From NCBI GenBank assembly GCA_945890645.1, contig CAMDCV010000031.1:1-48367 (forward strand): 48,367 nt of DNA. Direction: 5' to 3'. Shown in pieces: positions 18,057 to 37,151 of this stretch. This stretch comes from Akkermansia muciniphila (lineage in GTDB: Bacteria; Verrucomicrobiota; Verrucomicrobiia; Verrucomicrobiales; Akkermansiaceae). Each line of letters starts with the position of its first letter. The stretch's first letter is position 1. The notes under the pieces are model-generated. The model had not been told where the DNA came from and ran no database searches. It worked only from the letters and a program-made list of their open reading frames with translations. A program made the translations under genes and the position numbers.

Positions 18057-21000
18057 ATGAAAGCCCTGCTCGCCGCGCTGCTAACCCTCTCCCTCCACGC
18101 CCAGGAACTGACGTTTTTGGAAAAATTTGCCACGCCCACCACTCGAACGGAGGCGCTGCAACTGCTCACGCCGCTCACCCGCGATTGGTTTTATTACCAC
18201 GCGCTCGACCAACAATTGCGCGGCGATGAGGCCGCCTTCACGGCCACGATAAAGGAATGGAAACGCCAAAGTGAAAATCCCTATGCCGCCGTCAGCACCC
18301 AGGGCTTTTCTTTACTGGAGAACCGACAACTGCTCCTGCGTGCCAAAACCAATCCCGATGCCACCATCGCCGAGCTCACGCAAAAGCTCGATCTCACCTT
18401 TGACTATGAAAAATCATCGGTCGCCGATGCGCGCAATGAACCTTCCACGCTCAATCCCAAACGCATCGCGCGCGACGCCTTCGAGGCGGAGATTCTGAAA
18501 AATGCACCGGAAAATCCCTGGCAGCATTTCAGCACCGAGCGCTTGCTCGCCGAGATCCCCAATGCCAAAAATTTCCCGGATCAAAAGAAACTCGACCTCC
18601 TGCGCTTGATCCCCGCCTCTGCCCATGCCGAGGCGCTTGATCTGATCGCTCTGTGTCTGGAAATCGTTCCCGATCATCCTTTCGGCGCCGTTGAGATTCA
18701 CCAGGCGCTCACGCATGAGTCCTTGCTCACGCTGCTCAAACGCATGCCCAAGCTCGCGGACAACCAAAATTTCGCCCGTCGCTACTTGCAGACCATGCGG
18801 CCCTCGGACGAGAGCAACTACCTGCGTGATCCCCAACGCTACCTCGCCCACCTGCAAGCCTGCGATGATTTCTTGAGCGCCCGCCCGCCGGTATTCACTC
18901 CGTGGAAAGCGGATTGCCTGTGGCAAAAATTACTGCTGCAATACAAAACCAACCAGCTCTCGCGCGAGGACCTGTTGCGTTATCTGGCGCTGCCCATTCA
19001 AGGTTGCCCGATGATTGGACCACCTCGTGAAATCGTTCAACACACGTCAACTTTCGCGCAGTCGCACTTCGACATCATCGGCGGCAATCTCAGCGGCGAT
19101 GCGAACGACCTGGAATTCATGCTCATCCATTTCCTCCGCGAAACACAAGACCCCGGCGAATTCGCCCAATACATCCCCGAGGAAACGCTGAAAAAACTCC
19201 ACGCCAAAGCACACCTGCTCAAGGGCGATGATGACAGCAAGTGGGCCGCCGCATTTTCCGCCGATGAACTCAAGGAGCTGCGGCAACAAGCGAAACTCAC
19301 CTTCGCCGCACAGCAACCGACCCGCTTTTCGCCACAGGAGGAAGTGATTCTTTTGTTAGATTGCAAAAACACACCGAAGGTCACAGTGCGCATTTTCGAG
19401 CTCGATCTGCTGCGCTACCTGCGCCATCACGATAAGGAGCCGGATGCCTCCATTGAGCTTGATGGCCTAGTGCCGCATGTCGAGCGCACATTAACTTTTG
19501 TTCAGGCACCAGTGGTCGAGCATCGCGAAAGCATCGCCATTCCCGAGCTCAAGGGCCGCGCTGCCTGGGTCGTGGAATGTGTTTCCGGCGGCATCGCCAG
19601 CCGCGCGCTGATCCGCAAGGGCGAGCTGATTCCGCACATCGAGACGACCAACGCGGGGCAATGGATCCGGCTGTTTGATGAATCCCGCCAACCCATCCGC
19701 GCCTTCCGCCTCCACAGCAACAGCGGCATCCTCACCTCACAAGACGATGGCACATTGCTCATTCCCTTCACCAAAACCTTGTCCGTGCCCCAGAACGCAG
19801 TGATCGAAGCGATCCCCGAAAAACCCAACACCCCCACGCTGGCGAAGCGGGTCTTCCTCGGCTCCACCCAGGCCGACTATCAATTTTTCTGCGGATTCCA
19901 CATTGATCGCGAGCAACTCATCGCCGATCAACCCGCCCGTCTTTTATTGCAGCCTCGCCTGCTCAATCACGGTCAACCTTGCCCCCTCGATGTCATCAAA
20001 AACGCCAGCATCACCGTCACCGCGCAACTCCTTTCCGGTGCCACCAGCGATCACGTGATCACTGCGAAGGAACTGCAATCGATCATGACCGCGGAGTTTC
20101 CGATGCCGCGCGATGCCACCAGCTTGCAGATCAAGATTGTAGCGCAAATCCCCCGACCTGATGATCTTCCTCCGTTTTCCCTGCAAGCCAGTCAAAGCTA
20201 CGAATTCAATCAAGCACTCGCCTCGGAAAAAATCTACTCCAGCTTTTTCGTACACACCAGCAAGGGGCATCGTTTGGAAATCCTCGGCCGCAATGGCGAA
20301 CCGGGAGACAACTGGCCGCTCAACCTCAAATTCAAGCACCGCCTGTATTCGACGCCCTTGAGCATCACCTTGCAGACCGATCCATCCGGAGTGATCGAAC
20401 TCGGCGCGCTGGAAGACATCGAGACAGTGACGCTCGAATCCACCGTCATCGCCACCGTGCCCTATCACCCGCAATCGTTAGAAAAGATGACATTGCCGCA
20501 TGTCATTCACGCCGCAGCGGAGGAAGTCATCCGCATTCCCTTGCAGAAAAACATCCGCCGCGAGGGCATCCGTTTGGTGGAAACCACCAGCGAGACCTCA
20601 ACCAGTGAAAAATCTCTCCCCACTCGTGATCATTCCCAGTTTCTCACGATCGCGGAAAACATGCTGGTCATCGAAAAAATCCCCGCCGGAAATTTCCAGC
20701 TCACCATCGGCGACCACACGGTCACGCTGCGCATTTCTTCCGCAAAAGCAAACGCATCGCTCTTGCTCTCCGCCCAGCGCATTTTGCCATCCACCCAGCA
20801 TTCCACGTTGCAAATTTCCGGCACGGAGATCAATCCAGAAACCATCAAGATTCGGCTCAAACAATCGAACGATCAGACGCGCGTATCCATCATAGCCTCG
20901 CAATTTTCCGCCACGCCTTCCCTCTCCGATGCCTGGGATCGATTGCCCGAGCGCACCCCTGCTTACCAAACTCTCGGCTTCCAAGAGTCCTCGTTTCTGA

Positions 21001-24000
21001 ACAACCGGATCCTCGATGAGGAAATGCGCTATGTGCTCGATCGCCGCGCCCTCAAAACCTTCCCCGGCAACATGCTGCCGAATCCCGGCTTGTTGGTGCA
21101 TCGCGCCAACTACCAATACGACGGCGGACATTACAATCCCGCCCTGTTGGAAAAACCCGGCAATCTCAAAGACGAATCGGGAGAGGGCTTGGGAAGTATT
21201 CCTTCTGCAATCGCAAAAAAGACTGAGGAACAAAAAAACAGCCCGCTCTACGATTTCCTCGCGCATGGCTCGAACGTGTTCTACGACCTGAAGCCCGATG
21301 CGAATGGCATCGTGACGCTCGATCGCAAAAAATTCTCGGATGCCCGGATGCTCACAATCTGCGCCGCCGAAGGGAATCATTACCACCAGACCACTGTTGC
21401 TCTCGATCCGACTCCTTTGAAAAAACGCGCACGACAACTGCAACGCGCGCTCGATCCCAAAAAGCATTTCATCGGCACCCAGCGCGCCGTCGTGATGAAT
21501 AAAGACCAGAGCGAATCGATCAACAACGTGCTGGATGCGCGATGGAAGGAATACAACACGCTCGATGACGTGTTCCGACTTTTTGTCAGCTCGGCCAAGA
21601 GTCAACTCTTCACCTTATCCTTTCTCACCCGCTGGAACACCTTGGACGAAAAGAACAAAATCGAACTCTATCAACTCCATGCCAGCCATGAACTCCATGT
21701 ATTCCTCGCTCGCAAGGACCGCCCCTTTTTCGACCAATTCGTCAAACCCCAGCTCGCCCAAAAACGTGAAGTCACTTTCATCGATCACTACCTGTTAGAG
21801 CACGACCTCAGTTCGTATCTGAATCAACGCGAGTGGCTGAAACTGAATGCCGCCGAGCGAGCTTTGCTCTGCCAAGCGATGCCGCAGGCAGCGGATCGCA
21901 TTCGCCGTGAGATGCAGTATGAACTGGAAAAATTCCCCCTTCCCCTGGACCAGCAAGCCTTCCATTTCACCAAAGCGCTCGAAGGCAGCCAGCTCAGCCT
22001 CAGCGAACGCGCCGATATGGCGGCACTGGAATTGCGCAGTGAACAAGAGCGCTACGTGCTGGAAGAGGCACTGCGCAGAGAACTGGCAGCCGTGATCATC
22101 CCGTCCGTTGACATGCAGGACACCACGGTCCGAGAAGCGGTGCAATTTCTGCAATCGTTCTCTTCCAAAGTAGCGTTCGATATCGCCCAGCCACACGCTT
22201 CTGGACCCGACCTCGGCGCACTGCGGATCAAGGAACTCCAACTCACCAACGTGCCCATTCTCACCGCACTCAAATACATCTGCGAACAAACCCGACTAAA
22301 GTATTCCTTTAATGGAAATGCCCTCACCATCCGCCCTGCGACCGATGACGGAGAAGATATTGTCACGCGTAGCATTCAGGTGCCGCCGGATTTTCTCGAT
22401 GCCCTATCCGATAGCGGCATGGATGAATCAGGATCCGCTGATCCCTTCGCCAGCACTCCGACGGCTGGTAGCGGGCTGAGACCGCGAGCGAATGTGCAAG
22501 ATCTCCTCAAATCCAAAGGCATCCCATTTCCGGAAGGCGCCTCTGTGAACTTCATTCCAAGCAATTCTACCTTAGTGATCCGCAATACTCCCACAAATAT
22601 GGATCTCGTGGAACAAATTACCATGGCAATGCATAGTGATGCTCCCGGCAAAGGGATTCGCATCGAAGCCGCCAAAGGGTTATCCAAAGAGGAGCCTGCG
22701 ATACCGCAAAGCCAAGGGATGGTAGGCATGGCCGATCCTTTTGCCACGGCCGATCCCTTTGCCGCAGCACCTGCCACCCTGGGCGGAGCTCCCGATCATA
22801 AAACCACCACCAAAGTCTATGAGGAGAGCCAATACTGGAAACGCACTCAGGATAACTACGGTGATCCGTTTACCAAGTTCATCACCATCAACCGCTTCTG
22901 GATGGACCTCGCCCAGTGGGATGGCAAGGGACCTTTCCTCTCCACGCATTTCACCGAGTGCCTGAGCAGCGACAATGAAATGTTCCTCGCGCTCGCCTTG
23001 CTCGATCTTCCTTTTACCAAAGAGTCATCCGAAACCACCTTGCAAAACGATTCCCTTACCCTCAAGGCCAAGCAGCCGCTGCTCTTGTTCTATCGCGATA
23101 CCCGCGAGGCGGACAAGGTCATGGAAAACTCCCCCATTCTCGTGCGACAAACCTTTTACCCTGCCCAACAACGCTACAGCGAAGTGAACCGACGCCAGAT
23201 CGAGAACAGCATCACGGACGGCATCTTCTCCCCGCGCACGGCCTACGGCTCCTCTCTCATCATCGTCAATCCCACCGGCGAAACGCGCCAGGTGCAGATC
23301 CTCTGGCAAATCCCCCAAGGCTCGCTGCCCCTCGAAGGAAAACCCGCCACGGATTCCGTCACCATCGAGCTACAACCCTACGGCAATGAACAAATCAACA
23401 TGTCCTTCTACTTCCCCGAAGCCGGCGAATTCGCCTGCTACCCGTTTAATGTTTCACAAAACGATACCGTACTCGCCGCACCGCAGGTGCCCGTCATGCG
23501 TGTGACGGAAGAATCCACCAGCACGGCGGAAGATTACTTCTACGAACTCGCGGACGATGGCGATGCGGAAAAGTTGTTAGAATTTCTCCGCACCAAATCG
23601 CTGTTTGATGACAACCATGACCTCTACTACATCCTGTGGCGGCTCAAGGACAAGGCGTTTTATGATCGCGTGATCGCCATCTTGAATGACCGACTTTACT
23701 TTGACGAAGAAGTCTTCAGCTTTGCCTTTTATCATCGCGATCAGGCAAACATCCGTCGCTACCTGGAAAACTCCTCGACCGTGCAGGCCGTCGGTCCCTG
23801 GCTGGACAGCCCGTTTCTCCAAGTCACCGCCGCACGTGATCTGAACTGGTTCGATCAGGAATTTGACCCCTTCATCAACAACCGCGCGCATCGTCTCGGG
23901 ATGCAGGATCAGTTGCCGCTCGATCTCGCAAAAACGCATTACATCGGATTGCTCAATATCCTCTGCCACAAAACCGAACTCTCCGCCGATGACCAGCTCC

Positions 24001-24845
24001 AGCTCTGCTACTTCCTCCTCTTGCAGAACCGCACGGAGGATGCCGTGAATGCCTTTGCGAAAATCGATAGAGCCAAGCTCGGCCAGCAGTTGCACTACGA
24101 TTACCTGCACTGCTACCTGCTGTTCTCCCAGCAAAAACCCACCGAAGCCAAAGCCATCGCTGCACCCTATCAGAAACATCCTGTGCGCATCTGGCAGCAA
24201 CGCTTCCAGTCCGTGATCGCGCAGGCCGATGAAATCGCCAAGCCCGTGATCGCCGCAGATCAACCGGAAAACAAACAAGCGACGAACAGCTTCCTGACCA
24301 TGGCACACAAGGCCAACGGGCAACTGATTTTCACCCATCAGGGCCTGAAAGAGATCGACGTGCAGCTCTATCAAGTCGATATGGAATTGCTCTTCACCGC
24401 GAATCCCTTCCTCGATCAAAACAAAGTCCTGCATCACGCGATACGCCCGAACAAGATTCTGAAGGTCGCACTCAAGGACAAGGAAACCACCGTCGATCTA
24501 CCGGACGGCTATGCCCAGGGCAATGTCATCGCCGCCGTGGAAACGGGCAGCACGCAGGTGTTGCAAAACATCAACAGCAGCAAGTTTGCCCTGATGACGA
24601 ACAAAGCGCTGGGTGAGATCCAAGTCATCGAGCCCGGCAACAACAAAGCCCTGCCGCAGACCTACATCAAAGTCTATGCGCGCACGGAAGACGGCAGCGT
24701 GCAATTTTACAAGGACGGCTACACCGATCTGCGTGGCAAATTCAATTTCCGCGAGCACAACAACATCGATCCCGTATCCGTAAAACACTTCTCTCTCCTG
24801 CTCAGCCACCCCACTCTCGGCACTCGCATCGAGCGACTGGAATAA
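18057..24845 (+). CDS. Giant secreted multidomain protein, macroglobulin-like with embedded STN/secretin-type module
   Basis: 2262-aa protein with a short signal peptide ([15 protein letters not shown]). Residues ~30-420 are helical. About 425-900 is a series of beta-sandwich-like segments resembling MG/A2M domains ([14 protein letters not shown] near 435; [19 protein letters not shown] near 740). Near 995-1020 is a conserved-looking block ([20 protein letters not shown]). Residues ~1346-1528 form a two-part STN/secretin-N-like module ([26 protein letters not shown], then [30 protein letters not shown]), flanked by DPFA-containing linkers (1462, 1560, 1566). About 1825-2060 is TPR-like. The C-terminal domain (~2085-2262) contains [14 protein letters not shown]. 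No CxEQ thioester is present, so it is not a classical protease-trapping A2M. Function unknown; probably periplasmic or surface scaffold. Confidence 0.8.
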
Positions 24846-29489: not shown

Positions 29490-30428
29490 ATGAAACCTGC
29501 CAAGCTACTCTTCTTCTATCTTCCGGTCGCTCTCGTGAGCCAATCGCTGCTTACCTCTTGCGGATCTGATGAAGGCGAGCCACCCCCACTGGTCGGCTCC
29601 GCGCAGGCATCCTCCGGCCCTGCAGCATCTGCCTACCAAGCTGCTCTATCCGCCGATCAATCAGGAAATTCCAAAAAAGCCGCCAAGCTCTACGGCAACA
29701 TGGCGAGCGAGTACCCCACCGCACAGGACGCACCGCAGGCACGTTTCCGCGAAGCCCAGTTGCTCGAGCAACTCGGTGAACCCGTTAAAGCCTTCGATTC
29801 CTACAGTGATGTTCTGACCCGCTATCAAGGCAGCAAACTATACAGCCAAGCGCTCGCACGCCAATCCGCTATTGCACAGAACGCAGTAAGTGGTGATGTA
29901 AAGTCCGGTTTTTTTGGCTCATCCATAGACACGGTTAAACTCGTGCAGATGCTCGAAAAAGTTCGTGATGCCGCACCACAAGCCTCTTCCGCCCCCAAAG
30001 CACAGTATCAAATCGGCGAGGTCTATCAGAATCGGGGCAAAGCCAAGGAATCAATTGCCGCGTATCGCAAAGTCGTACAAGACTGGCCGGATAGCGCACA
30101 AGCCCCCGAAGCGCAGTACCGCGTCGGCATGATCCTTGTGGAAGAAGCCAAGAGCGGCAACCAAGACCTAGGCAATCTTGACCGTGCACGAGAAGCATTT
30201 CAAGATTACCTTACTCTTTACCCGAATGGCAGTCGCGCCGGTGCCGCCCGTTCCCAAATTGCATCACTCGGTGGCCAAGATGTGCAGCGCTCCTTCGAAG
30301 TCGCTGAATTTTATCGTCGCAAAGGTGATTACGAGTCCGCACGTTTTTATTACCGCGAAGTTCTGAAAAAACATGGTTCTGGTCCCTTACACGACAAGGC
30401 GCAAGCGGGTCTGAACTCTCTCCAATAA
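29490..30428 (+). CDS. bamD: BamD-like outer-membrane TPR lipoprotein
   Basis: 312-aa lipoprotein: hydrophobic leader, then lipobox L-T-S-C near residue 24, followed by an acidic/proline spacer that should favour outer-membrane sorting. About five TPR units follow (AAKLYGNMASEYP, AFDSYSDVLTRYQ, SIAAYRKVVQDWPDSAQAPEAQYRVG, AREAFQDYLTLYP, SARFYYREVLKKH). Layout and spacing match BamD/ComL of the BAM beta-barrel assembly machine, and the next gene is lptE, another outer-membrane assembly lipoprotein. A YbgF-like TPR role is the main alternative; bamA is not nearby. Confidence 0.75.
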   Translation: MKPAKLLFFYLPVALVSQSLLTSCGSDEGEPPPLVGSAQASSGPAASAYQAALSADQSGNSKKAAKLYGNMASEYPTAQDAPQARFREAQLLEQLGEPVKAFDSYSDVLTRYQGSKLYSQALARQSAIAQNAVSGDVKSGFFGSSIDTVKLVQMLEKVRDAAPQASSAPKAQYQIGEVYQNRGKAKESIAAYRKVVQDWPDSAQAPEAQYRVGMILVEEAKSGNQDLGNLDRAREAFQDYLTLYPNGSRAGAARSQIASLGGQDVQRSFEVAEFYRRKGDYESARFYYREVLKKHGSGPLHDKAQAGLNSLQ

Positions 30429-30445
30429 TTTGATTTCCTACACTC

Positions 30446-30991
30446 ATGCGATTCAGTTTCTTTTCCCGCATCAAACGCCCACTCGCCGCCATACTGGGCA
30501 TGGCCACCATTGTCATCGGGCTTAACTCCTGCGCAGGCTACAAACTCACAGGCCACCGTCCCCAAGCTCTTGCCCACGTGCAATCGATCCGTGTGCCCTT
30601 GTTTGAAAATAAAACACTCATCCCGCGTGGAGAAGTGTTGGCGACTAACTCCATTGTCGATGCCATCACCAGCGATGGCACGTATCGCATTGCCGATGAC
30701 TCGAAAGCTGATGCTTCGTTGCATGGATCAGTGGAATCGGTTTCCTACAATCAAGTGCGATCGACTCGACTCGACACCCTGCGATCTGAAGAGTTGGAAA
30801 ACACCATCATCATCCGCTGGGAATTGCGCGATGCGAAGAATCCGCTCAAAGTTCTCGCAAGAGGCAAAGCAGAAGGGTCCTCCCGTTTCGCCATCGATGG
30901 TAACTTGCAAACAGCGCGCACCAATGCCCTGCCCGATGCCATGCAGCGCGCTGCCACCCAAGTGGTCGGTCGTTTGACCGATGACTACTGA
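30446..30991 (+). CDS. lptE: LPS-assembly lipoprotein LptE
   Basis: LptE plugs the LptD barrel that inserts LPS into the outer leaflet. This 181-aa protein has an N-terminal basic and hydrophobic leader, lipobox LNSC, and then CAGYKLTGHRP, the signature start of mature LptE in PVC bacteria and Bacteroidota. VPLFENKTLIPRGEV, ITSDGTYRIADDSKADASLHGSV and the C-terminal amphipathic helix ALPDAMQRAATQVVGRL follow. It lies 17 bases after the BamD-like gene and its stop lies 10 bases before the rsmI start used here. Confidence 0.88.
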   Translation: MRFSFFSRIKRPLAAILGMATIVIGLNSCAGYKLTGHRPQALAHVQSIRVPLFENKTLIPRGEVLATNSIVDAITSDGTYRIADDSKADASLHGSVESVSYNQVRSTRLDTLRSEELENTIIIRWELRDAKNPLKVLARGKAEGSSRFAIDGNLQTARTNALPDAMQRAATQVVGRLTDDY

Positions 30992-31001
30992 CAGACGTAT
31001 C

Positions 31002-31691
31002 ATGTCGAACGGCAGCTTTTATTTGATTCCCACGCCCATCGGCCATCGCGATGACATTACCTTGCGTGCCTTGGAAGTGCTGCGCACTGTCGATGCCATC
31101 GCCTGCGAAGATACGCGACACTCTTCGCCGCTTCTGCAACATCACGGCATTCAGAAACCTCTTGTCTCTCTGCATGAACATAACGAAATTCGACGCATCC
31201 CCGAGTTGTTAGATCGCGTGCGTGCTGGCGAGTCCATCGCAGTCATCACTGATGCGGGCATGCCTGGCATCTCGGATCCGGGCTATCGTCTCATCCAGCG
31301 TTGTATCGAGGAAAGCATTCCCTATGAAGTCCTACCGGGGCCTTCCTCGATTCTCAATGCTTTAATCGGTTCTGGATTTCCTTGCCACGCCTTCAGCTTC
31401 GGCGGCTTCCTCTCGGTCAAAAAAGGCAAACGCGGGCAGACCTTGCAAGCCGCGCTAGACTCGGGGCAGACCAGCATATTTTTCGAATCACCGCATCGCT
31501 TGCAATCCACTTTGGAAATCCTTGCAACGCTTCAACCGCAGGCACGCGTCTGCGTAGCGCGCGAGCTCACCAAAAAGTTTGAAACCTTCCACCGCGACAC
31601 GGCCGCCGCCCTTCACGCGTATTTTCAAGTCCACCCGCCCAAGGGAGAAATTGTCTTGCTTGTACACGGCAACCCCACTGCCGACGCCTAA
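31002..31691 (+). CDS. rsmI: 16S rRNA (cytidine-1402-2'-O)-methyltransferase RsmI, short form
   Basis: RsmI 2'-O-methylates C1402 in the 16S decoding centre, with SAM as donor. Visible family motifs: FYLIPTPIGHRDDITLRALEVL, CEDTRHSSPLL, AVITDAGMPGISDPGY, LPGPSSILNALIGSGF and FFESPHRL. The protein ends just after KGEIVLLVHGN, so at 229 aa it lacks the ~50-residue C-terminal helical domain of the 286-aa E. coli enzyme. The usual Asn of PIGN is His here. ATG 31002 fits the family start; the in-frame ATG 30981 overlaps the lptE stop by 11 bases and would add 7 residues. Part of the proC array. Confidence 0.93.
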   Translation: MSNGSFYLIPTPIGHRDDITLRALEVLRTVDAIACEDTRHSSPLLQHHGIQKPLVSLHEHNEIRRIPELLDRVRAGESIAVITDAGMPGISDPGYRLIQRCIEESIPYEVLPGPSSILNALIGSGFPCHAFSFGGFLSVKKGKRGQTLQAALDSGQTSIFFESPHRLQSTLEILATLQPQARVCVARELTKKFETFHRDTAAALHAYFQVHPPKGEIVLLVHGNPTADA

Positions 31692-32803: not shown

Positions 32804-34615
32804 ATGAATCAGATTTCCCGCACTCTCCTCTTTCTGTGGACCATCATCGGTCTAGGCACTCTCCAGGCACAGGAAACGTTTTTTCGTAACATGTATGAGC
32901 CGAAATCGGGATCTTACGTGGAAGTCGTATCGCTCTTTGGCAAATTGCCCGTTACCGGATATGCGCCCGTGCGTGTCACGATCGCTAACCGGACTGCGGC
33001 ACCTGCCAGCGTCTCGCTTTCCTTTGAATCTGCTGCTAGCAGCCAGTATTACAACTCAGGCGATCTTAAAGTAAAATCTTCTTTTGTCGCAGGCTCTCCC
33101 GCTGGCACTGTGACAAGCACCGATTTCTTAGTGCCCGTGGCAGCCATGGTTAAGCAAACCAGTTATGGTTACAACAGTGGTTCTCAAAGCCTATCACTCA
33201 ACATGGTCGGCGTGAGCAATGGTTCCTACACACAAAGTAGCTACTCTTCGATCGACACCCCTCACATGCTCATCTCGGAAGCACTCAATACACCGAATGC
33301 TTCCACTCTCGACTCGGAGGTGAACAAAAGCTCTTCGAGCGGTTATTCTCGGGGCAATCTCACCTTCGCTGGAAAATTCACGCCCCCGCAAATGCCCGAA
33401 GATTGGCGCGCATATGCGGGATTCGATGGCATGATTCTCACCGACCAAGACTGGATGGATCTCCCACCCGGCGCTCGTTCCGCGATTTTGCAATGGAACC
33501 GACATGGCGGCTACTTGCGCATTTTTAGCAATAGTTCTACAGCATCGATGAGTTCGCTCGGCATCAGTGAAACAGGCACCACCAACTCACTGGCGCGGGG
33601 CAAAGGCTACGTCACCCTTAGCCGCATCACAAAATCTCTCGCACTGGATGCCTCATTGGTCGACGAAGTGAAGACCAGCAATCAAGTCTTCCGCGTGGGC
33701 AAGTCGATGATCGAAGACTACAGCAATTCCAGTTGGGGTCTGCAAGATGAGCTTGGCAGCAAGACTTTCCATTTCGTAATGTTCATTCTCGTGCTGATCG
33801 CATTCGGTATCTTGGTCGGTCCCGTCAATCTTTTCGTTTTTGCGAAATCGGGCAAACGCCACAAGCTGTTCATCACCACTCCCATCATCGCCATCGGCGC
33901 CAGTGCGGCGATGATCGTGTTGATCTTTATCCAAGATGGTCTCGGTGGCAGCGGCATTCGTGTGCAATGGATGGAACTCACGCAAGAAAATGGCGACAAC
34001 AATGCCTACATCCATCAGGAACAAATTTCGCGTTCGGGTGTTTTGATCGGTAATCGTTTTCTACTCACCGAACCCACGGTGATCTCCCCACTTCCCCTCG
34101 CCAAAAGCCAATGGACTCGTCTGAATGTCGATAGCGAAACCAGCCAAGCCTTCGATATGAATTTCGTCGACAAAGGACTACAAGTCTCAGGCGATTGGTT
34201 CCAATCCCGCTCTGAACAAGCGCAGTTGCTCCAGTCGATCATCCCCACTCGGGCGCGCATCGAGTCCACACCTGGCGGCAACGAGGCGGCACTGCTATCG
34301 AACTTCGAATACAACATCGCTAGCTTTTATCTGCGGGGCAAAGGCGGCAAATACTGGAAAGCCGAACAAATTGCCGCAGGCAAAAATTTCCTCTGCACGG
34401 AATCCTCGCAGGCGGAATACGAAGACTTCGTCAAAAATGGCATCAAGTATCTTGGCAAAGCCCAGCAAGATCAATTGATGCGCCTCAGCGAACGCGAAGG
34501 ACACTATTTCGCTATCACCGAGGATGCGCCCATGCTCGACACCTACTCCTCGATCAGTTGGAAACAAAACCATACGATCATCACCGGCCAAATCCACAAT
34601 CCGGAAACTCCTTAA
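32804..34615 (+). CDS. Uncharacterised exported/membrane subunit of a three-gene ABC system
   Basis: 603-aa protein. A signal peptide or anchor (RTLLFLWTIIGLGTLQAQE) leads into a large periplasmic Ser/Thr-rich region (~25-315). Two membrane segments follow: FVMFILVLIAFGILVGPVNL (~325-345) and ITTPIIAIGASAAMIVLIFI (~355-380), joined by a short basic FAKSGKRHK loop; then a second soluble domain (~390-603). The GPVNLF motif before a basic loop recurs in PVC proteins next to ABC transporters, but I know of no assigned function. ATG 32804 is chosen over GTG 32789, which precedes a possible -10 box (GACAAT, 32791-32796). ABC ATPase follows after 14 bases. Confidence 0.8.
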   Translation: MNQISRTLLFLWTIIGLGTLQAQETFFRNMYEPKSGSYVEVVSLFGKLPVTGYAPVRVTIANRTAAPASVSLSFESAASSQYYNSGDLKVKSSFVAGSPAGTVTSTDFLVPVAAMVKQTSYGYNSGSQSLSLNMVGVSNGSYTQSSYSSIDTPHMLISEALNTPNASTLDSEVNKSSSSGYSRGNLTFAGKFTPPQMPEDWRAYAGFDGMILTDQDWMDLPPGARSAILQWNRHGGYLRIFSNSSTASMSSLGISETGTTNSLARGKGYVTLSRITKSLALDASLVDEVKTSNQVFRVGKSMIEDYSNSSWGLQDELGSKTFHFVMFILVLIAFGILVGPVNLFVFAKSGKRHKLFITTPIIAIGASAAMIVLIFIQDGLGGSGIRVQWMELTQENGDNNAYIHQEQISRSGVLIGNRFLLTEPTVISPLPLAKSQWTRLNVDSETSQAFDMNFVDKGLQVSGDWFQSRSEQAQLLQSIIPTRARIESTPGGNEAALLSNFEYNIASFYLRGKGGKYWKAEQIAAGKNFLCTESSQAEYEDFVKNGIKYLGKAQQDQLMRLSEREGHYFAITEDAPMLDTYSSISWKQNHTIITGQIHNPETP

Positions 34616-34629
34616 TCAGCCATCTCCTC

Positions 34630-35649
34630 ATGAGCCAACACGCCATCAGCGTTCACAATCTTTATCGCTACTTCGGCCCGCTCAAAGCGGTCAATGGAGT
34701 GAGTTTTGAAATCCCACACGGATCAGTCTGCGGTTTCGTCGGTGCCAATGGTGCCGGCAAAACCACGACCATGAGGATCCTCGCCTCACTCGATTATCCC
34801 ACTCTCGGCGCGGCGGAAATCTGCGGCTATAATGTCGTCAGTCATCCTGAAGAAGTGCGACGTCTCATCGGTTGGATGCCCGACCATTTCGGCAACTACG
34901 AGCACATGACTGTGGTCGAGTATCTCGATTTCTACGCCCGCGCCCTCGGCTACAAGGGCAAGGAACGCCGTCTACGCGTGCAAGAGGTGATGGAGTTCAC
35001 AGACCTCGTGCCACTCGCCGAACGCTTTTCGAATAAGCTCTCCAAAGGCAACACACAACGTCTCGGATTAGGCCGCGCGCTGCTCCAAGACCCGCAAGTG
35101 CTGATCATGGATGAACCCGCCGCCGGTCTCGACCCCAAAGCGCGCGTGGAACTCAAGAGCCTCATCCGCGTTCTCGCGAATGAAGGCAAAACGATTTTCA
35201 TTTCTTCTCACATTCTTTCGGAACTCGGAGAAATGTGCGATTCGCTACTCTTCATCAATAGTGGTCGCATCGTCCACCACGGCGATGCCGAGAGCATGAA
35301 GCGCGATACCGACACCGAAGGTGGACTGCTCTATGACGTGCAGGTTCTCGGCAATCCTGAAGAACTATCGGCATGGTGTTTGTTGCACCCGAAAGTCGAA
35401 TTCGTCGAAGCCCGCCGGCAAGGGGGACGTCTGCGCATCGAGTCGGCAGAACTCACTGATGCCGCAGAAATTTTACACCGCATGGTGAAGGATGGCCTCA
35501 AGATCACCGAGTTCCATCGCGAGGAACGGAATCTCGAAGATGCCTTCATTGATATGTTAGGCAAAATTGATCGGGGAGAAGCCATCGGACCTAAACCACC
35601 TCCGATGCCCGAACTTCAAGCCTTTAACCCACCGAGCACAGAATCATGA
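34630..35649 (+). CDS. ABC transporter ATP-binding protein
   Basis: 339-aa ATPase of the ABC-2 / gliding-type exporter group. Walker A GANGAGKTTTM, signature LSKGNTQRLGLGRALL, Walker B VLIMDEPAAGLDP, and switch His in FISSHIL. The C-terminal ~100 residues (from about 235) form the extra domain typical of this group, ending in a proline-rich tail (GPKPPPMPELQAF). ATG 34630 is used; an in-frame ATG at 34558 lies inside the upstream gene. The stop overlaps the permease start (ATGA), implying coupled translation. Partner of the 603-aa protein and the permease. Confidence 0.94.
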   Translation: MSQHAISVHNLYRYFGPLKAVNGVSFEIPHGSVCGFVGANGAGKTTTMRILASLDYPTLGAAEICGYNVVSHPEEVRRLIGWMPDHFGNYEHMTVVEYLDFYARALGYKGKERRLRVQEVMEFTDLVPLAERFSNKLSKGNTQRLGLGRALLQDPQVLIMDEPAAGLDPKARVELKSLIRVLANEGKTIFISSHILSELGEMCDSLLFINSGRIVHHGDAESMKRDTDTEGGLLYDVQVLGNPEELSAWCLLHPKVEFVEARRQGGRLRIESAELTDAAEILHRMVKDGLKITEFHREERNLEDAFIDMLGKIDRGEAIGPKPPPMPELQAFNPPSTES

Positions 35650-37151
35650 GCACCAACGCACCCAGTCCCGCGATTGAAATGAATGCGTCGGAGCGAAGCA
35701 CTGCCGGCTTGAGCGATTTCTCGGATCGTCTGCCTCCCATGCTAGTGAAGGAGCTGCGCCAGGGCTTGCGCGCGAAAACTTTTGTCGGCGTCTTTCTCGG
35801 CCTGCAATTGTTTCTCGCCATCGTCATGCTTTTTGCCACCACGGCCTCGGGTCTTGATGGCGCGGGCGAGGCGGTTTCGCGCATCATCTTTTTCTTTTTC
35901 TCACTTGCGGTTCTCGTCGTCCAGCCATTGCGCGCGATGAATGCTCTCTACAGTGAGATCAAAACCACCACCATTGACATGATGGTACTCACTCGCCTGA
36001 ACGCTCGTCGCATCGTCGCGGGCAAATGGGCGGCGATTGTTGGACAGACCTTGCTGCTATTTGTCTCCATCGTCCCCTACCTCATTCTGCGCTATTTCTT
36101 CGGCGGCATGAATTTGTTTGCCGAGCTATTAGCACTGGGTTCTTTGTTCCTTTTATCCGCGTGCCTCACGGCATTCAATGTGGGGATTTCCTCCAATGCG
36201 GCCATTATCGTGCGCGGCATTTTCCCGCTCGCATTGGCCGTCACGATGTTCTTCTTCATGGGTTTCATGATGGAAGAATTCGATGATTTCATGGAGTTCT
36301 TCGCATTGGAAGACCCCACCTACATTGCGGTGTATTTCGGCCTGCTGATTGGGGCGCTGTACCTTGCATGGACCGCATTTGGTTTGGGTGTTGGTGCCAT
36401 TGCGCCGGTTTCGGAAAATCACAGCACCTTGAATCGATTAGTAACTCTCGGCACGATGATAGTGGTGGGACTCATCTTAATTTTAGCGGATGCCGACACT
36501 GAAATGATTCCGTTTCTCATTGGTGCCGTGGCATTTCCCGGTCTTGTGTTAGCGCTGACGGAAGCAAACTTCCTCATGCCACGTGTCACCATTCCCTTTG
36601 TGAAGCGTGGTGTCATCGGAAGATTTCTGGGTGCGTTTCTCTATCCCTGCTGGACCTCAGGTGTCCATTACACCGCTCTGCTTGCGGTGATTGTCTTGGG
36701 GACCGGAGCGATGATTGCTGGTCAGCCCAGCATTCGCGGTTATTTTGGAGCTGAGGAATTCACCGTGCTCTGCAGTTTATTTGGCAGCGCCTTGTTTCCC
36801 GCCCTCTTTCTCGCTCGGTTTCAAAACCGCATTCAAAACCGCCTCGGCATTTACTTCGCGATATTAATCGGCTCCTTTGCCCTCATGCTGGCCTTAATCG
36901 CGGTGGCTGAAAGCACGAATGCAGATCTTTCGATGTGGATCTTTTGCTGGTTGCCGCCAGTCCATTTATATATGGTCGATAACCACAAGTTCGGCGATGA
37001 AATCACCATGATGATCAGTCTCATTTTCACAGGCCTCTACCTTGGTGCCTTGCTCATCCACGGCTGGAAGCATTTCAAAACCATCCGTCTCGCAGAAGAA
37101 GAAGCGATCTCGACCTACTTCACACCAACGGATACTGCGAAAAAATCCTAA
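35646..37151 (+). CDS. ABC transporter permease (ABC-2 type), about 12 membrane segments
   Basis: 501-aa polytopic membrane protein. A soluble N-terminus carries VKELRQGLRAKTF, the amphipathic segment that precedes TM1 in ABC-2 permeases. TM candidates include LFLAIVMLFATTASGL, IIFFFFSLAVLVVQPL, LLLFVSIVPYLILRYFF, FPLALAVTMFFFMGF, VYFGLLIGALYLAWTAF, MIVVGLILILAD, ALLAVIVLGTGAMIA and FAILIGSFALMLALIAVA. The first half has the core ABC-2 fold; the extra TMs suggest a fused second half. It overlaps the ATPase gene by 4 bases. Substrate unknown. No terminator was seen before waaA, 95 bases downstream. Confidence 0.88.
   Translation: MSTNAPSPAIEMNASERSTAGLSDFSDRLPPMLVKELRQGLRAKTFVGVFLGLQLFLAIVMLFATTASGLDGAGEAVSRIIFFFFSLAVLVVQPLRAMNALYSEIKTTTIDMMVLTRLNARRIVAGKWAAIVGQTLLLFVSIVPYLILRYFFGGMNLFAELLALGSLFLLSACLTAFNVGISSNAAIIVRGIFPLALAVTMFFFMGFMMEEFDDFMEFFALEDPTYIAVYFGLLIGALYLAWTAFGLGVGAIAPVSENHSTLNRLVTLGTMIVVGLILILADADTEMIPFLIGAVAFPGLVLALTEANFLMPRVTIPFVKRGVIGRFLGAFLYPCWTSGVHYTALLAVIVLGTGAMIAGQPSIRGYFGAEEFTVLCSLFGSALFPALFLARFQNRIQNRLGIYFAILIGSFALMLALIAVAESTNADLSMWIFCWLPPVHLYMVDNHKFGDEITMMISLIFTGLYLGALLIHGWKHFKTIRLAEEEAISTYFTPTDTAKKS

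Follow-up and report, generated by a model that had tools for sequence, protein, structure and literature searches.

Repeated overwriting of a secretin N0-N1 segment inside a giant envelope protein in the family of Akkermansia muciniphila

Results

A pilus secretin segment within a giant exported protein

The window, by which we mean the whole 48,367-nucleotide stretch of Akkermansia muciniphila DNA that was analyzed, encodes a giant, exported cell-envelope protein of 2262 aa, and within this protein lies a block that is the N0(STN)-N1 segment of the type IV pilus secretin, of the Amuc_1098 type, that the lineage itself possesses, present in frame and without the secretin barrel. Trees and silent sites show that the block has been repeatedly overwritten, and we consider it very likely that it both originated from the secretin and was rewritten many times thereafter. 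The block stands, in frame, in a part of the protein that would otherwise be a flexible linker, and the gene divides as follows (B denotes the block-bearing and N the block-less subfamily):

18057..24845, + strand: host gene of the 2262 aa protein, B subfamily; the start resembles a signal peptide by eye
18057..22043, + strand: N-terminal backbone, residues 1-1329, common to the block-less (N) proteins up to about residues 1273-1332
22044..22805, + strand: whole inserted region, residues ~1330-1583, which replaces the hypervariable linker of the N proteins
22104..22346, + strand: N0/STN lobe, residues ~1350-1430, in which about 32 residues of the N0 region of the genome's own secretin are absent
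22347..22481, + strand: linker between the N0 and N1 lobes, residues ~1431-1475; its DPFA at 1462 has a counterpart in the displayed secretins
22482..22664, + strand: N1/Secretin_N lobe, residues ~1476-1536
22665..22805, + strand: residues ~1537-1583, the low-complexity end of the insert, which includes the DPFA motifs at 1560 and 1566
22806..24842, + strand: C-terminal backbone, residues 1584-2262, again common to B and N proteins

The NCBIfam profile for the Amuc_1098 type IV pilus outer membrane protein (NF042912) matches residues 1329-1531 with an E-value of 1.2e-49 and 169 bits, a match that spans only profile positions 243-461 of 805 and falls below the full-length cut-off of 750 bits. 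The two-lobed STN/secretin-N-like module that a sequence-only reading had described in this protein is thereby borne out, and the four motifs quoted for it are present at residues 1355, 1398, 1491 and 1510; its proposed extent of ~1346-1528 captures a real block, the homology of which starts slightly earlier, near residue 1330. In a Pfam search of an excerpt, STN (E 7.4e-5, 22.9 bits) and Secretin_N (E 0.015, 16 bits) were each recovered below their cut-offs of 28.4 and 28.2 bits, the homology running in the order of a secretin N0-N1, and the secretin barrel domain PF00263 was absent from the 2262 aa protein (Pfam, E<=10).

Two complete Amuc_1098-type secretins are encoded in the window genome, S1 with 877 aa and S2 with 819 aa; each has the barrel and TPR repeats, their NF042912 scores are 1165 and 979 bits, and S1 is the last gene in an Amuc_1102-1101-1100-1099-1098 row. 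Identity between the block and S1 is 61% over 184 residues (E 9.4e-58), against 33% for S2; the match to S1, together with the partial NF042912 match, therefore defines the block as a secretin N0-N1 segment lacking the barrel.

Judging from the conserved hydrophobic pattern, the block very probably still folds: Across 34 B rows (B_G069 excluded), blocks are hydrophobic, on average, at 95% of the 50 columns that are hydrophobic in the secretin and at 4% of the 70 columns that are non-hydrophobic in S1. AlphaFold2 predictions, each based on three sequences only, reached a pLDDT of 50 for the block, with a fitting order of elements, and of 35 for residues 881-1800, too poor to place the linker among the domains. 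When the pLDDT 50 model of the block was searched with Foldseek, nothing was returned at E<=0.001; designed proteins ranked on top, and secretin N-domains spanned E 0.11-0.38, including the XcpQ N-domains (E 0.11) and the N0-N1 of MxiD (E 0.19). Against PDB sequences, neither phmmer with the block nor hmmsearch with the family alignment A1 produced a match at E<=10, and the secretin alignment A2 recovered known secretins, with the best stretches in the barrel end, as well as TPR proteins.

The three DPFA motifs, thought from the sequence to be flexible joins bounding the module, are located where they were said to be (1462, 1560 and 1566) but do not mark its borders: The one at 1462 lies inside the N0-N1 linker, where DPF is found in all six displayed secretin rows, and we reject these motifs as edges of the insert. 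DPF[AS] occurs in 40 of 48 S1 secretins and 33 of 38 B proteins, as well as in 10/37 vWA proteins, 4/24 macroglobulins, 5/17 N proteins and 15/701 other (background) ORFs.

The block replaces a hypervariable linker

Among 26 aligned homologs, the block is present in nine (B); at the same place, the remaining 17 (N) possess a low-complexity, hypervariable linker of 70-157 residues, none of which contained a secretin piece (0/17 at E<=1e-3 in a secretin profile search). Because most homologs (17/26) have only the linker, rather than all of them having the block in unbroken alignment, the block is an insertion, as it had looked from the sequence. A tree of the backbones from which the block was omitted (G165 and G185 excluded, no outside root) split 36 B from 17 N proteins cleanly, with SH-aLRT values of 100 on both sides, and the two types occur together in at least six draft genomes (G150, G173, G209, G233, G241 and G260). 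The simplest reading of this unrooted tree is that B proteins gained the block, probably once, at the base of their subfamily. Ten genomes (G001, G003, G004, G006, G007, G017, G020, G021, G024 and G031) contain S1 and have no B match at E<=1e-60, so the direction of transfer was from the secretin to the giant protein.

At E<=1e-150, which no N protein attained, B-level matches were detected in 22 of 288 genomes of the order, all within the window's family; weaker B relatives elsewhere could fall below this threshold. The N0-N1 pair occupies the same site in all 31 B proteins first examined and in 37 of 38 examined later, the single miss being G165, in which the B gene is split into two ORFs: the block-less half was used, and the second ORF carries the block.

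No gene partner of the B gene is conserved, and its neighbors mostly differ across the 10 contexts compared, several being common only to G000 and G009, with an ABC-type ATPase present in a few. In G018 (L144:16643-19344) and G097, the B gene is followed immediately by two genes, one of them encoding an ABC-type ATPase, which was checked against Pfam in G018 only; a similar ATPase is encoded in the window at 34558-37151, about 10 kb from the B gene. Adjacent genes at 29490-31691 of the window encode a YfiO-like TPR protein, an LptE-like protein and a tetrapyrrole-methylase-family protein. A Pfam search of the 2262 aa protein itself found no TPR in its C-terminal region.

Blocks follow the secretin of their own genome

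In a tree of 31 blocks, 18 S1 and two S2 segments, a single block clade was rejected (AU p 5.7e-68): The B backbones form one clade, their blocks do not. Pairs of a block and the S1 of the same genome were supported in G027 (97/88), G015 (100/98), G018 (99/92), G022 (99/91) and G005 (100/99). A quick tree of 86 rows (37 blocks and 47 S1) contained 27 label changes, 17 of which were forced by well-supported branches, and such changes were about as frequent as with shuffled labels. (The S1 of G097, which has a broken frame, was excluded from trees and ranks, and the S1 of G154 and G069 were not included.)

For 27 of 34 blocks, the S1 of the same genome was the best of 47, and for 30 it was second or better, a count that in part reflects the genus-level kinship of the secretins. 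Median block identity was 64% to own S1, 47% to other S1 and 43% between blocks, and when the pairing was permuted over 33 genomes, the observed value was reached 0 times in 20,000; with only about 64% identity, the likeness of a block to its own secretin is nonetheless loose. In 20 of 24 nearest-backbone pairs, both blocks were nearer to their own secretin than to each other, the exceptions being G209/G173, G233/G260, G256/G209 (on one side) and the window's own pair, G000/G009.

Blocks thus group with the same-genome donor while their flanks follow the orthologs, a pattern that in the window genome holds only at the level of the genus. There, own S1 ranks only seventh of 47 for the block, other secretins of the genus being nearer, and the blocks of G000 and G009 are nearer to each other than to their secretins. 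Given this rank, copying into this protein probably last took place before the split from G009, or else S1 has changed since. Own secretin is likewise not always the best match in the group comprising G027, G135, G146, G150 and G154.

Silent sites and exact tracts

The backbones of the B proteins of G146 and G150 are 95% identical and their blocks 61% identical, and silent divergence amounts to 0.69 in the block versus 0.21 in the N-side flank and 0.03 in the C-side flank (220 codons). These blocks, near saturation at silent sites between backbones this similar, have been replaced and not merely mutated. Silent divergence was also raised between G146 and G154 (0.51 in the block versus 0.15 in the flank), and a small excess was seen for G089/G067 (0.63 versus 0.54 and 0.51) and G000/G009 (0.58 versus 0.50 and 0.44); the pair G209/G173 showed no excess in the block.

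In B_G108, the exact DNA match to own secretin is 51 nt long, versus 19 nt for the best other genome; the corresponding lengths are 44 versus 26 nt for B_G256 and, among vWA genes, 59 versus 35 nt for that of G067. The longest exact tract came from own secretin in only 8/36 B genes, 4/37 vWA genes and 1/24 macroglobulins, and B_G086 has 47 nt in common with the secretin of G165 versus 26 nt with its own, so that the majority of copies are of no recent date, and sequence may have been exchanged between species. Within S1 itself, the N0-N1 part has a silent divergence of 0.46-0.47 versus 0.26-0.29 in the part after it, in both G146/G150 and G129/G067, as if this part of the donor also recombines.

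Recurrent copying from the cell's own secretin is well supported, the block having been rewritten many times with the secretin gene of that cell, or of close kin, as the source. Because the flanks of the orthologs are kept, the likely route would be short-tract ectopic gene conversion.

Secretin pieces in other large proteins

A secretin profile search recovered pieces in 37/38 B proteins, 30/37 vWA proteins and 9/24 macroglobulins, and in none of 116 reversed proteins searched as a control; an earlier BLAST count had yielded 29/37 vWA proteins, 8/24 macroglobulins and no reversed protein. Among the ranked rows (30 of 37 vWA and 9 of 24 macroglobulins, rows without a secretin match being left out and several macroglobulin frames being partial), own secretin was the best match for 16/30 vWA proteins and 3/9 macroglobulins, a weaker association than in B. 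All 90 matches inside the secretin gene were sense and in frame, a count to be read with the consideration that off-frame pieces would become undetectable faster than in-frame ones. Two matches fell outside the secretin gene, both in a secretin fragment next to it in G173; the flanks examined contained no further matching gene, and we reject sequence flanking the secretin gene as a donor. Matches among the 701 other ORFs, in which the assigned host-family members were checked in part, were limited to secretins, to copies or additional members of the host families, to small fragment proteins, and to two proteins of 302 aa and 377 aa.

Like the window protein, the YfbK-like vWA proteins receive sequence from the secretin in their long linker, but unlike it they show no sequence relation beyond this common donor. 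The vWA protein of the window genome contains a secretin TPR piece (62% identity), and a search of the same genome with its linker found, at E<=0.001 and apart from the protein itself, nothing but secretins. Linkers of vWA proteins and bait regions harbor permuted, partial pieces and a gate-loop peptide of about 30 residues from the same donor, the pieces in vWA linkers being sometimes in permuted order (G135, G015 and G027). There is also a second donor: In the vWA linker of G264 (L136:2698-8160), two stretches match a Wzz/GNVR/AAA_31 kinase encoded by that genome, at 73% and 63% identity. A case with a Wzz-type kinase as donor was also noted in L139 (G203), and a few weaker matches to small proteins in G264.

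Several smaller proteins contain secretin sequence as well. In the window genome, a 292 aa protein (L161:5327-6202; C4:117326-118201) is made up for the most part of the secretin STN region, present twice in tandem and 39-43% identical to S1, and barrel pieces (32-40%) occur in two adjacent 254 aa proteins (L160:3419-4959) and one 274 aa protein (L162:3701-4522), on C6 and C3. Directly upstream of the B gene in G064, a 302 aa protein of no Pfam family (L129:6936-7841) carries a gate-loop-like secretin peptide (E 4e-4). Outside the family, weaker secretin N-domain pieces are present in frames of 1040-1570 aa (G051:C151:68672-69883, G047:C74:21780-22139 and G037:C1:414732-415679), and the habit of copying may therefore be order-wide. 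Within the family, a search of the single-contig genomes G057 and G066 (genus g3), in which the secretin of another genome (G027) served as query, detected in each just its two full secretins; at E<=1e-6, scattered pieces were absent.

Macroglobulins and the bait region

The window genome also encodes a true macroglobulin of 1994 aa (L163:5892-11873), with Pfam domains MG2, A2M_BRD, A2M and bMG10 and a CAEQ motif. At residues 1177-1213, between A2M_BRD (963-1054) and A2M (1236-1322), it contains a peptide from the secretin of its own genome (78-85% identical over 34-37 residues), which is the position of the bait; a bait position of the secretin piece was seen in the alignment for 7 of 9 macroglobulins. 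Baits are described as being cut by proteases, which become trapped by macroglobulins of type I, with a thioester, or of type II, without one (PMC4498604, PMC5764988). The same secretin donor feeds the bait region of thioester macroglobulins in addition to the linkers of vWA proteins.

Unlike this macroglobulin, and unlike bacterial alpha-2-macroglobulins generally (the thioester type I and the type II, MagD), the 2262 aa protein of the window has no MG2, A2M or bMG10 domain, and the CxEQ thioester, found in 15/16 canonical macroglobulins, occurs in 0/38 B frames, some of which are partial; type II macroglobulins are likewise reported to lack the CxEQ thioester (PMC5764988). The sole basis for calling the host protein macroglobulin-like, as the sequence-only reading did, is one weak macroglobulin profile match at its C-terminus (residues 2087-2236, E 1.2e-4). 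The label finds no support in Pfam, and we reject the host as a macroglobulin; a role for it as a protease trap would be conjectural.

Discussion

The copies may act as self-secretin mimics, serving as bait or decoy for any agent that attacks the secretin or binds to it, a function that we propose tentatively and that may well prove wrong. As mimics, the copies would have to keep resembling the current secretin. Such a role would account for why secretin-like sequence is favored and sits in linkers and baits, for why the copies follow the current secretin yet diverge from it, and for the choice of model, the Amuc_1098 protein being described as the most abundant outer membrane protein of Akkermansia (PMC4960237). 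The explanation taken as a whole, from the secretin origin through to mimicry, is possible, though we would not wager on all of its parts holding together. Its most specific form, in which secretin fragments would be continually converted into the exposed linkers and baits of macroglobulin traps, vWA proteins and B proteins, such that any attacker adapted to the secretin, be it a protease, a phage or a predator, would also meet a trap that keeps pace with it, strikes us as rather unlikely.

Docking on a secretin or similar ring was already suggested by the sequence-only reading, and the block might instead be a module that joins the giant protein to the secretin ring or to the inner-membrane partner of the secretin, with gene conversion keeping the interface matched to the cell's own machine. 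N0 and N1 domains contact partners in other secretin systems, and the presence of the same domain pair at the same site in virtually all B proteins (31/31, then 37/38), the retention of the hydrophobic pattern, and the tracking of own secretin by the block all agree with such a role. However, the blocks of G146 and G150 are each 66% identical to own secretin when the two secretins are 80% identical to each other, and the block is therefore less constrained than the secretin; moreover, docking could explain a constant block in B but fails for the pieces, permuted and partial, that occur in vWA linkers and baits, and we view it as unlikely. Somewhat improbable too, in our estimate, is that the copies have little function and result from a recombination bias, by which disordered linkers tolerate inserts and the secretin gene, perhaps because it is highly expressed and has low-complexity sequence and DPF motifs in common with the linkers, is simply the commonest donor. 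The sites are indeed linkers or baits, DPF[AS] is frequent in secretins and B proteins relative to background ORFs, Amuc_1098 is very abundant in Akkermansia according to the same report (PMC4960237), the Wzz-type kinase provides a second donor, and exact tracts often match a foreign secretin better than own. Against this stand the sense and in-frame orientation of all 90 matches in the secretin gene, the lack of any donor in the flanking sequence bar the fragment in G173, the retention by B of the same two domains and their hydrophobic pattern, and the absence of secretin pieces from all 17 N linkers.

That a single ancient fusion was followed by vertical descent, with the likeness to own secretin arising as a tree artifact or by parallel evolution, would be in keeping with the B backbones forming one clade, with the block being always at the same site, and with the lack of block turnover in G209/G173, but we reject this scenario as very improbable on account of the block tree (AU p 5.7e-68), the excess of silent divergence in the block, and the exact matches of 44-51 nt between two B genes and their own secretin. 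Chimeric assemblies or contamination in metagenome assemblies are, if anything, still less probable. Many of the sampled genomes are draft assemblies, yet the block is also carried by the single-contig genomes G027, G064, G105 and G152, with own secretin best in G027, G105 and G152 and second in G064; two MAGs carry orthologs of the window protein, and reading frames are mostly intact.

Repeated overwriting from a donor gene is familiar from antigenic variation by gene conversion, as in pilE/pilS of Neisseria and vlsE of Borrelia, where one gene repeatedly receives tracts from a donor locus. Unlike in those systems, the donor here is an intact gene of another protein family, the recipients are several and unrelated, and no silent cassette array was seen. 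Plant NLR immune receptors contain integrated decoy domains, and there, as in the B proteins, a larger protein of another kind incorporates a fast-changing copy of a domain of a cellular protein. The present case differs in being bacterial and refreshed from the source gene, and an attacker or immune role would be conjectural here; if true, the self-mimic defense would constitute a bacterial counterpart of integrated decoys with built-in updating. The closest relative of the block itself is the Amuc_1098 secretin (PilQ of Akkermansia), whose N0-N1 it matches and whose gene resides in the same genome, but the window protein, with neither PF00263 nor more than positions 243-461 of the 805-position profile, is not itself such a secretin. 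In the open-access literature, considered by titles and the beginnings of abstracts, we found no earlier description of secretin pieces in macroglobulin, vWA or other proteins.

A practical consequence is that annotation matches labeled "secretin-like" in this group call for caution, since they may be copied fragments. These proteins also offer a testable system for how the baits of bacterial macroglobulins acquire their sequence and specificity, and for why copying would hold an unrelated protein in step with the pilus secretin. Across this bacterial family, the linkers and baits of giant envelope proteins can be written, in frame and repeatedly, from a working gene elsewhere in the genome.
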